NCBI GenBank assembly: GCA_947503715.1
Contig: CANNER010000001.1
Coordinates: 434,001-498,000 of the forward strand
DNA length: 64,000 nt
From: an uncultured Caulobacterales bacterium
Lineage (GTDB): Bacteria; Pseudomonadota; Alphaproteobacteria; Caulobacterales; Maricaulaceae
Direction: 5' to 3'
Position 1 is the first letter of the stretch. Every line of letters starts with the position of its first letter. The translations under genes and the position numbers were made by a program. The notes under the pieces are model-generated. The model was not told where the DNA came from. It saw only the letters and a program-made list of their open reading frames with translations, and did not search any database. Positions 34,568 to 37,351 of the stretch are shown in pieces.

Positions 34568-35665
34568 TCAGACGTTGAATTTGAACAACATGATATCGCC
34601 GTCCTTGACGAGATAGTCCTTGCCCTCCTGCCGGACTTTTCCGGCCTCTTTGGCCCCGGATTCGCCGCCATTGGCGACATAGTCGTCATAGGCTGTGGTT
34701 TCGGCACGGATGAAGCCTTTTTCGAAATCGCCGTGAATGACGCCCGCACATTTCGGCGCGGTCCACCCGTCGCGGAAGGTCCAAGCCCGGGCCTCTTTCG
34801 GGCCAACGGTGAAATAGGTCTGTAGACCCAGCAGGGCATAGCCCGCCCGGATGAGGCGGTTGAGCCCGGGCTCTTCCAAGCCAATCGCGTCCAGATATTC
34901 CGCCTGTTCTTCGTCTTCCAGCACGGCCATTTCCGACTCGATCTGCGCGGAAATGACGACGGCCTGCGCACCCTCGGATTTGGCATGTTCCAGAACTTTG
35001 GCGGAGAAATCATTGCCCTCCGCCGCGCTGTCTTCATCGACATTGGCGACATAGAGGACGGGTTTGGAGGTCAGGAGCTGAAGCATGCGCCACGCTTTCT
35101 TGTCGTCCTCATCAATCTCGGCGACGCGGGCAGGTTGGCCTTCTTCGAGCAGGGCGATGGCTGTTTCGATCAGGCGCATGGTTTGCAGCGCGTCGGCATC
35201 CTTCTGCTTGATCTTCTTTTCCAGTCCCGGCTTGCGCTTCTCTAAGCTCTCCAAATCGGCCAGCATCAGCTCCGTCTCGATGGTCTCGTAATCCGCCATC
35301 GGATCAATCCGACCTTCGACATGGGTGATGTCCTCATCCTCGAAACAGCGCAGGACATAGACGATAGCATCCGTCTCGCGGATATTGGCGAGGAATTGAT
35401 TGCCCATGCCTTCGCCCTTTGACGCGCCCTTCACGAGGCCCGCAATATCAACGAAGTTCATCCGAGCGGGGATGCGCGTGGCGGATTTTCCGATATCGGC
35501 AATGACGTCAAGACGGGCTTCCGGCACGGCGACATCGCCGACATTGGGCTCAATCGTGCAGAACGGATAATTCGCCGCTTGCGCATTTGCCGTCTTGGTC
35601 AGCGCGTTGAAAAGCGTCGATTTCCCGACATTGGGAAGACCGACAATACCGCATTTGAAACCCAT
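34568..35665 (-). CDS. ychF: Ribosome-binding ATPase YchF
   Basis: 365 residues from ATG 35665, preceded by CCGGAG; longer upstream readings are not supported. Obg-family domain order: P-loop GLPNVGKSTLFNAL (9-22), switch region, G3 DIAGLVKGASKGEG, a coiled-coil hairpin (about 130-195), the YchF-specific NVDE in place of the usual NKxD (explaining its ATP preference), and a C-terminal TGS-like domain ending in LFKFNV. It binds the 70S ribosome and is highly conserved. Confidence 0.97.
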   Translation of the reverse strand: MGFKCGIVGLPNVGKSTLFNALTKTANAQAANYPFCTIEPNVGDVAVPEARLDVIADIGKSATRIPARMNFVDIAGLVKGASKGEGMGNQFLANIRETDAIVYVLRCFEDEDITHVEGRIDPMADYETIETELMLADLESLEKRKPGLEKKIKQKDADALQTMRLIETAIALLEEGQPARVAEIDEDDKKAWRMLQLLTSKPVLYVANVDEDSAAEGNDFSAKVLEHAKSEGAQAVVISAQIESEMAVLEDEEQAEYLDAIGLEEPGLNRLIRAGYALLGLQTYFTVGPKEARAWTFRDGWTAPKCAGVIHGDFEKGFIRAETTAYDDYVANGGESGAKEAGKVRQEGKDYLVKDGDIMLFKFNV

Positions 35666-35746
35666 GAGATTGGCTCCGGAAGGAAGTGTGAGTGTTGGCG
35701 CGGGACGTGGAGAATTGTACGGGAAATTGCAAGGGCGAAACGCTTG

Positions 35747-35830
35747 CATTTGACCCAGTGGGTCAAATGCAGTGCAGCGCCGAAACGCCATGCGTTTCGA
35801 TTCCTCGATATTTGAATGACAATTAAATGC
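35747..35830 (+). repeat. Three-hairpin element, copy 1
   Basis: Stem A 35747-35757/35759-35769 around one base (the perfect repeat is one base longer each side), stem B CGAAACGC-CAT-GCGTTTCG at 35781-35799, and imperfect stem C at 35808-35830. It aligns without gaps over 84 positions to the complement of 35926-36009 (66 of 84 identical by hand), with paired changes that keep base-pairing. Confidence 0.8.
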
Positions 35831-35833
35831 CGC

Positions 35834-35921
35834 TGTGACCCCGCACTTGTTGCAGGGCCTGACGTTTGTGAACGCAGGTTGAGACCGCAGCCGATAGGTC
35901 CCGCATCACGTGCGGGATGAC
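35834..35921. repeat. REP-like repeat, copy A
   Basis: About 88 bp with two small hairpins and inverted ends (TGTGACCCC ... GGGATGAC); the right hairpin is TCCCGCA-tcacg-TGCGGGA (35899-35917). It resembles the widespread alphaproteobacterial REP-like sequence GTCAYCCCGG. A second copy is at 36455-36543. It lies between the two inverted hairpin elements. Confidence 0.75.
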
Positions 35922-35925
35922 GAAA

Positions 35926-36009
35926 GCATTTGATTGATAATCAAATGCTGAGGAACCGAACCGCATGGCGGTTCGGCGCGACACTGCAATCGACTCACCG
36001 GGTCGATTG
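35926..36009 (-). repeat. Three-hairpin element, copy 2 (inverted)
   Basis: Read on the minus strand: stem A arms CAATCGAC and GTCGATTG (36009-35987), stem B CCGAACCGC-CAT-GCGGTTCGG (35976-35956), stem C GCATTTGATT/AATCAAATGC (35948-35926). All three stems are perfect or nearly so here, whereas stem C is degraded in copy 1. Confidence 0.8.
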
Positions 36010-36091
36010 TGGGCGTTCCGCGCCTCGGAGGCTCTTACCTCCTGTATCTCTTAGTTTTCCGTTTTGTTTCATTCAAAATAAAACGGGGTGT

Positions 36092-36163
36092 CCGCGTGGT
36101 CGTCTGGGTTCTGGTCGCAAACCAAATATAAGCTATGTTTTCGAACCTTCCGGTCCCACGCGG
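36092..36163. other. Long stem-loop, possible small RNA
   Basis: CCGCGTGG (36092-36099) and CCACGCGG (36156-36163) form an 8-bp closing stem; inside it GGGTTC and GAACC offer a second helix around a loop of about 40 nt. No promoter, poly-T or family match is clear, so it could be a small RNA, a decayed sequence or chance. Confidence 0.25.
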
Positions 36164-36454
36164 CGATGCCTTTCTGCGCTACCGGCCGAACCATTCAGTC
36201 TGGGAACGATCAGCTCTCGATAGGCCACCCAACTCGACTGACATTACCCAGTTCCGTCCAATGACAAGCACCTCTTCTTTCCAATCAAGTCAATGTGCAC
36301 ATGACCGCCCGTGAAAGAAGACAGCTTTAAAATGACACATGTCCAAGGGGGTGTGGATACGATTGTCGAAATTTAGCTTATACCATTGAAATCATTGAGG
36401 TCTGACAGACGCTTAAACGGGGATATAGTTTTGAAGATTGCAAAATGCCCCGTA

Positions 36455-36543
36455 TGTCACCCCGCACGTGATGCGGGGCCCGTCATTTGTGAACGCCAGC
36501 CTAAGAGAGTGGCCGACAGGTCCCGGATCAAGCCCGGGATGAC
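36455..36543. repeat. REP-like repeat, copy B
   Basis: About 89 bp, similar to 35834-35921 at both ends and in the middle GACGTTTGTGAACGC/GTCATTTGTGAACGC. Hairpins CCCCGCA-cgtga-TGCGGGG and TCCCGG-atcaag-CCCGGGA. A shorter relative is at 36599-36637 (TGTCACCCTGCA ... TGCGGGATGAC). Confidence 0.75.
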
Positions 36544-36717: not shown

Positions 36718-37269
36718 TCAATCACACTCCGCATCGGGCAGTTCCAACCGGTCGCCAACATCAATCATATTCGCACGTCCCAAACCGTTCAGCCGCGAAA
36801 TCGCCTTCACACTCGTGCAATGCTCGCGCGCGATATCCCAAACCGTGTCGCCGCGTTGGACCACATAGGTGAGATTGCGTTTGCGCGTGCGGGTTTTCTT
36901 TTCAGGTTCCGGTTCGACATAGCGGGTGGAACTGCGGATGACTTTGGGCTCTGTCGGATAGACGGATTTGCGCAGGAAATAGTCGCGGCAATTGACTTCA
37001 ACTTCGTGGAGCACGCGACTGCCGCTTTCCTCGTCCTGGACGATCATCACGCGGGCCATGTCATTATCGACATCGCGGTCGAGGGCTTTGGTCCGCATAT
37101 CGTCATTCTCGCAGATCATGGAGGCCTCACTCGGCATTTCGTCCATGACATAGCTGGCGGATTGAACAGATTTGCGTTTCTCAATCTTAACGGTCGGAAT
37201 GCTTTCAGATACAGAACCACAGCCTGCGAGCAGGGCGGCGGTACTTATCAGAATAAAAATGCGTTTCAT
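36718..37269 (-). CDS. LysM-domain lipoprotein
   Basis: 183 residues from ATG 37269 (follows AAGGG). Lipobox LLAGC at the N-terminus. Residues about 60-110 are acidic and hold two cysteines; a Lys/Arg-rich linker follows (EPEKKTRTRKRNL). The last 50 residues are a LysM domain (YVVQRGDTVWDIAREH, then MIDVGDRLELP), which binds peptidoglycan. It is a cell-wall-tethered envelope protein without a visible catalytic domain. Divergent from the PepSY gene at 37352. Confidence 0.85.
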   Translation of the reverse strand: MKRIFILISTAALLAGCGSVSESIPTVKIEKRKSVQSASYVMDEMPSEASMICENDDMRTKALDRDVDNDMARVMIVQDEESGSRVLHEVEVNCRDYFLRKSVYPTEPKVIRSSTRYVEPEPEKKTRTRKRNLTYVVQRGDTVWDIAREHCTSVKAISRLNGLGRANMIDVGDRLELPDAECD

Positions 37270-37351
37270 GGTCTCAGCCCTTGAGAGAATTGACTGCAAA
37301 CTGGCATGAACAGGGTTAGCAAAGCCTTAAATTAACCTTTAAAGCGCGGGG

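Follow-up and report, generated by a model that had tools for sequence, protein, structure and literature searches.

REPs are described in the available text of Di Nocera et al. 2013 (PMC3733652) as single hairpins of 20-40 bp, many of them within 20 bp of the 3′ ends of open reading frames, mostly between converging or codirectional genes and often as inverted pairs. According to the same text, REPs of the GTAG type often supply a TAG stop codon, and those of the CGTC type are predominant in alphaproteobacteria and have no dedicated transposase. A CGTC REP is defined there by a CGTC tag at one end, a stem of 8-9 bp that almost always starts with AT, a loop of 4-5 nt, and a short CCA-like tail. 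MITEs, in the same available text, carry terminal inverted repeats of 15-30 bp.

Our study concerned a repeat found twice in the window, the whole 64,000-nucleotide stretch of DNA analyzed, from an uncultured Caulobacterales bacterium whose genome is called the host genome below. A folded, mobile-looking repeat, enriched at gene ends and overlapping their stop codons, was well supported. As far as REPs and BIMEs are described in the available text of PMC3733652, the element resembled them as an interspersed palindromic repeat at gene 3′ ends with stop overlap and inverted pairs, and differed as a multi-helix fold of 77-104 nt with a closing helix, a stop-holding internal loop, and a conserved linker. 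It was small, non-coding, modular, and structured, as are MITEs and BOX-like modular repeats, but the long terminal repeats given for MITEs in the available source were absent, its ends agreeing only as GTAACG versus GTGACG, 6 bp by eye. The palindromic elements of Rickettsia are likewise alphaproteobacterial repeats that touch coding sequence, and the available description in PMC3733652 sets them apart, as many lie in frame inside genes whereas our element favored gene ends. The families of Rfam 15 include similar covarying multi-helix motifs; none matched the window at gathering score, and all matches in 17 further loci (9 + 8; E up to 1) fell under it, the only one touching the motif being a weak overlap with the rnk leader in locus L204 (31.8 bits versus 55). 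No description of the element was found in the open-access literature, which is weak evidence, as most subscription journals lie outside it.

The two copies faced each other across a REP dimer, head to head, in the interval between a gene that we take to encode a LysM-type lipoprotein and one that presumably encodes a ychF-like GTPase (Table 1). Neither copy lay at a stop codon; both were upstream of the presumed ychF gene and fused to the CGTC ends of the REP dimer, and the CGTCA of the dimer's right unit doubled as the end of copy 2. Five of six named loci with relatives of the LysM protein were from Hellea, at 31-36% identity (a loose kinship), and no ychF match was seen beside the relatives among those six. 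Among ten loci of the LysM gene within the genus, ychF adjoined it only in the host locus, and therefore an empty-site comparison for the insertion in the window was impossible.

Table 1. Positions of the repeat copies and neighboring features in the window.
Feature	Position	Strand	Details
Copy 1 of the folded repeat (three-hairpin form)	35735..35838	+	R1 match, 101.3 bits; R2 match at 35727-35803, 78.4 bits
Copy 1, hairpin A	35747..35769	+	
Copy 1, hairpin B	35781..35799	+	
Copy 1, hairpin C, decayed	35809..35829	+	
REP dimer between the copies	35834..35922	.	
Right unit of this REP dimer	35922-35897	-	CGTC-ATCCCGCA-CGTGA-TGCGGGA-CC; CGTC-type by the definition in the available text of PMC3733652
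Copy 2 of the folded repeat (three-hairpin form)	35918..36021	-	R1 match, 116.4 bits; R2 match at 36029-35953, 85.5 bits
Copy 2, hairpin A	35987..36009	-	
Copy 2, hairpin B	35956..35976	-	
Copy 2, hairpin C, intact	35927..35947	-	
Core, a separate multi-copy element of ~300 nt	36017..36357	-	3′ end (GAGG) abuts copy 2
Second REP dimer, beyond the core	36455..36543	.	
Downstream gene, presumed ychF-like GTPase	34568..35665	-	Start taken at MGFKCGIVGLPNVGKST
Upstream gene, presumed LysM-type lipoprotein	36718..37299	-	NCBIfam matches weak, all under cut-off

The earlier note had aligned copy 1 (35747-35830, plus strand) with copy 2 (36009-35926, minus strand) without gaps and counted 66 of 84 positions as identical, a count that we confirmed. 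The inverted pair that it described, with a REP-like unit between the copies, is real; its extent was understated, an imperfect inversion with 75% complementarity running from 35735-35860 against 35896-36021. Stem C, which it called decayed in copy 1, was indeed weak in the RNA fold of that copy. The predicted RNA fold of copy 1 had a z-score of -2.65 (4 of 200 shuffles were at least as good) and that of copy 2 a z-score of -4.86 (none of 200); the whole 287 nt folded as single-stranded DNA gave -10.25. The compensatory changes proposed from these two copies held beyond them, with 10 of 29 pairs changed on both sides among 15 full-length copies from four genomes, and covariation reached 0.270 versus 0.124 when shuffled (0/500) and at most 0.072 with slid partners.

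The family to which these folded repeats belong is real. In a BLAST search with the 263-bp region, 42 matches were obtained in the host genome, and many of these covered the REP alone. Fifteen copies (nine from the host genome, four from G047, and one each from G052 and G053) were the basis of R1, a covariance model of the entire element; it matched the 3.15-Mb host genome 30 times, or at 23 places once seven opposite-strand echoes were removed, and 15 of the 18 genomes of the genus, the host included. Most R1 places were taken into a copy set in which 87 sources gave 120 matches and, without echoes, 98 copies (23 from the host genome), not all independent or certain, as some sites are double (L194 and L195 appear to be a single locus present at two contig ends) and the lowest scores are ~29 bits. 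A second model, R2, of the shared 77-nt part was made from an alignment of 49 sequences selected among the 98 for clear structure. Across the order, under strict filters (E up to 1e-4) that miss weaker carriers, R2 matched 18 of 348 genomes, all within the window's own family, in 7 of 55 genera. No R2 match was found in five loci from Hellea, which together cover 48 kb and not whole genomes, and none for copy 2 in plasmid and phage collections. An exact pattern match in a viral contig was rejected, as it lay inside a 627-aa open frame where R2 had no match. The earlier note had named outcomes that would speak against it, namely no further copies and no conserved pairing, or copies only within coding genes. 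Neither occurred: further copies with conserved pairing were found, and 13 of the 98 were enclosed by an open frame of 100 aa or more. Several of those 13 frames are probably spurious, and at least two of the copies (L213 and L216) stand at the stop of a Rid-like gene, the overlapping frame being spurious.

The core beside copy 2 is a different repeat, of ~300 nt, with long invariant blocks (L091-L103). Its 24 matches in the host genome were read as 14 places, and it also occurred in 10 other genomes of the family. The fold predicted from nine host copies had 79 pairs, 16 of them with changes on both sides, and the core matched no Rfam family at gathering score; it looks like a candidate undescribed repeated structured RNA. 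A core copy had no match in the plasmid collection. Core copies at L091:1647-1985 and L092:2416-2754 were followed by a near-identical open frame of 112 aa, with 667 of 690 bases agreeing between the loci; this frame had no Pfam or PHROG match and was present in 2 of 137 genomes. An insert of ~85 bp with inverted ends, another nested repeat, was present in three of the 14 core copies (L100, L101, and L102). By eye, the folded element replaced ~20 bp within the core repeat at one host copy (L099), and hairpins A and B lay inside core-like sequence in G052 and G053. A weak Rfam match to Wolbachia sRNA 46 (L013:1038-1184; 37.2 bits versus a gathering score of 65.3, E 0.00013) adjoined the 5′ end of a core copy.

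By structure, copies of the folded element comprised RGGACGCGNAACGYCC, then hairpin A, whose stem varies, then AGTGNAGCGCC, and finally hairpin B, bounded by CCGAA...TTCGG, and a closing helix, P1, joined the 5′ end of the element to the linker after hairpin A. The reading as a three-hairpin unit needed correction: the shared part is the 77-nt unit of P1, a small helix P2a, and hairpins A and B, and hairpin C with CGTCA belongs to an optional tail. Among the 49 aligned copies, 21 of 23 pairs showed changes on both sides (24 of 26 with P2a included), and covariation was 0.471 versus 0.162 when shuffled and at most 0.141 with slid partners. In a second set of 25 matches (23 distinct rows) from other genera and orthologous sites, it was 0.589 versus 0.178, a value from sequences fitted to R2, which leans the alignment toward its structure. 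A local P1 hairpin around the stop (GGACG/CGTCC) was rejected and the long-range P1 used, as the local form was barely above shuffled sequence (69.4% paired versus 68.0%; covariation 0.189 versus 0.163, attained in 44/500); one of six copies folded alone, L216, preferred it over P1.

Selection is not the only possible source of compensatory changes: template switching, as it corrects quasi-palindromes, can create them too, and simple hairpins such as A, B, and C, with stem sequences that vary freely, are its expected products. Yet P1, a 3-bp helix that encloses a further hairpin plus an internal loop, still covaries by itself (0.357 versus 0.164, 0/500; e.g., CGC/GCG to CAC/GTG), and unpaired linker and loop positions are conserved; both observations count against such an origin. 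We regard this origin of the pairing as very unlikely.

Helix P2a was first indicated by single-sequence folds. Pairing was seen in 92.5% of its cells, and covariation was modestly above that of shuffles (0.409 versus 0.340, 0/500), but only 5 cells were changed on both sides against 1.6 expected from shuffles, a number attained by 59 of 500. Its wobble cells were G-U or U-G in 56 cases and A-C or C-A in 1, a preference that favors the sense strand but rests partly on conserved letters. A general excess of G-U was sought outside P2a and was absent (33 versus 48 A-C over the 23 R2 pairs of 49 copies). Without the apex of hairpin A, the counts were 32 versus 29, in the second set 9 versus 16, and in the first 15 copies 12 versus 10; P1 plus lower A gave 17 versus 8 (p 0.054) and the base of B 9 versus 12. 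P1 and P2a argued for action in mRNA, and the missing orientation bias and general G-U excess argued against it. Action of the fold in mRNA is likely but unproven.

The context of stop codons was the telling feature missed in the first reading. Counting open frames of at least 100 aa with a stop within -5 to +18 bases of one copy end, 31 of the 98 copies lay at a stop codon; 200 random draws of same-length stretches from the same loci, overlapping such frames by at most 20 bases, gave a mean of 9.1 and a maximum of 17. These 31 copies, eleven of them in the host genome, had a sense stop at the 5′ end in 22 cases and an antisense stop at the 3′ end in 13, with 4 having both; the other 67, including both window copies, were away from any stop. 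The sense stop fell exactly at model positions 4-6 (GCG-TAA or similar) in 10 copies. Among these, clpA in three species, a gene presumed to be rpoN in two, and a Rid-like gene recurred, so they do not represent ten unrelated genes. The CGTCA end contained the TGA of an opposite-strand gene in five copies. In other genera, 15 loci from 10 genomes of 6 genera were read: the sense stop was at the motif in six (L221, L238, L222, L239, L242, and L230), one copy lay inside a 945-aa open frame (L223, in G005), one adjoined an apparent tRNA (L231), and the remaining loci had neither a stop at the motif nor an open frame nor a tRNA. By gene context, 51 of the 98 copies were between codirectional, 24 between convergent, and 13 between divergent genes, with 10 undetermined, and no significant strand preference was seen between codirectional genes (28 sense versus 23 antisense, p 0.29). 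At L157:4992-8168, three copies lay at gene ends within 3.2 kb, beside genes that we take to be dksA and a moxR-like ATPase.

The same gene ends could be compared with and without the element. The clpA gene (NCBIfam ClpA, E 7e-105 for a 250-aa fragment) gave 16 loci from 18 genomes, 14 of them readable; the motif was present in G000, G053, G057, and, weakly (27.8 bits), G056, and absent in ten, two of which (G052 and G045) were checked with R2 and eight by eye. All 14 readable ends had Asp-Ala-stop, with or without the motif, so the stop there was not brought by the element, and GACGCG occurred at 4 of 4 ends with the motif versus 2 of 10 without. In a clpA tree with 2 of 13 inner branches well supported, the four motif species fell in one clade of eight that also held two species without it. 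The Rid-like gene (TIGR00004, 47.9 bits, under its cut-off of 106) was present in 42 of 136 genomes, and 29 of the 30 loci taken were readable. The motif lay at the stop in four (G018, G060, G045, and G056), all of which had one additional codon ahead of the stop; among the 25 motif-free ends, 22 stopped right after a conserved glycine and three (L270, L286, and L292) had an extra codon. Seven of these 25 were checked with R2, without a match, and the others by eye; at L282 and L295, a hairpin was present that R2 did not accept. In the host genome, a REP took the place of the motif at this gene end. The occurrence of motif, REP, or neither at the same gene ends indicated that gene ends trade such repeats.

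Ends of both genes with and without the motif showed no clear target-site duplication by eye. Copies at orthologous ends were in most groups no closer to one another than to other copies, and they often had less in common than unrelated copies do (clpA, 0.54 to 0.62). Exceptions were the Rid-like gene copies of G045 and G056 (0.82) and L176, which was slightly nearer to its partner in the host genome (0.81) than to other copies. This pattern fits recurrent insertion or very fast turnover, and the coexistence of orthologous ends with and without the motif suggests an insertion-like turnover. Two places in G047 were alike at 158 of 163 bases, and a third matched the first at 106 of 117; the likeness started at the element's 5′ end (ACGCGT or ACGCAT) and on the far side ran ~56 and 10 bases past the element. 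Two other copies, L167 and L168 of the single-contig genome G046, lay in a duplicated stretch with 562 of 592 bases identical. The earlier note had proposed a kept fold and a non-autonomous mobile unit; conservation of the fold holds, and the element resembles such a unit in being multi-copy and patchy, with the list of parts and the context now corrected.

Patchy presence at orthologous ends and near-identical units in different places would also suit pure selfish DNA, in which the fold would be needed only as a single-stranded DNA hairpin substrate of an HUH-type transposase acting in trans and gene ends would be the sites of least harm. REP/RAYT and IS200/IS605 are the models for such a transposase. 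Selfish DNA is also consistent with the absence of an orientation bias and of any general G-U excess, and the short pairing of the terminus with the foot of the hairpin is similar to the guide pairing of IS605. The expected partner was missing, however: the earlier note had pointed to a REP-associated Y1 transposase, and PF01797 (Y1/IS200-type transposase) had no match in the host genome, which is 99.97% complete, while the control matched in 5 of 14 known genomes. The G-U bias of P2a also speaks against a DNA-only role, but G-T pairs in single-stranded DNA would look alike and part of the bias is letter conservation. Of 25 nearby sense stops, 18 were in the frame of model positions 4-6, again to the detriment of selfish DNA. 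The open-frame copy at L223 and the fold of L216 moved our assessment very slightly from the RNA reading toward the DNA one, which we hold to be possible but on balance doubtful.

The relation to REPs was close in position. A CGTC REP, whole or partial, was fused at the CGTCA (or GTGAC) end of the element in 8 of 23 host places, so that the association in the earlier note was common in this genome and not required. Fusions at window 35917-35922 and at L096, L159, L093, and L094 looked as if REPs had inserted at the CGTCA word. An ordinary CGTC-tagged REP variant would share the genome, the gene 3′ end position, and CGTC-like letters at both ends, and REPs are reported by the 3′ ends of open reading frames, the GTAG type often giving the stop, in the available text of PMC3733652. 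By the CGTC definition in that text, the right unit of the REP dimer between the copies fits, the first pair of its stem being mismatched, but the element does not: its stem A is 9-11 bp, usually starts with GC, and is followed by AGTGNAGCGCC, and it has two or three hairpins and a closing helix. Its 5′ end is ACGCGNAACG, with GTAG there in some copies only, and the host genome had no Y1 tyrosine transposase gene as for a GTAG REP or REPIN with RAYT. The element works like a REP by position, given its enrichment at gene 3′ ends, and is not a member of the REP definitions published in the available text of PMC3733652; that it is simply a REP variant is most improbable.

The reading toward which we lean, as somewhat probable, is a small interspersed folded repeat acting at mRNA 3′ ends, in which fold, spread, and a REP-like trailer role are combined. 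The transcript would fold into P1 (5′ CGC with the linker GCG), an internal loop (G-NAA / NA), P2a, hairpin A, and hairpin B, and many host copies have in addition a tail that contains hairpin C and has CGTCA at its end. The element would spread via a trans-acting route. In 10 of the 98 copies, the NAA of the internal loop is the stop codon of the gene, and a copy at a gene end may, like a REP or BIME, serve as a structured mRNA trailer or as a spacer between cistrons and modulate mRNA ends. A bolder possibility, which we consider unlikely, is a stop-codon RNA device, in which the stop lies in the P1/P2a internal loop, a terminating ribosome would open the fold, and its departure would let the RNA refold.

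Simple hairpins are the usual picture of short repeats at the ends of bacterial genes. The repeat described here has a multi-helix fold, a closing helix that covaries, and, in some of its copies, a stop codon inside a conserved loop. With gene ends that carry the repeat and gene ends that do not, parasite and working mRNA end could be told apart by swapping one gene end. If the stop-codon device were true, translation termination would be coupled to the fate of the mRNA 3′ end or to restart at the next gene, and a spreading "end-of-gene" module would be traded between gene ends within one family.
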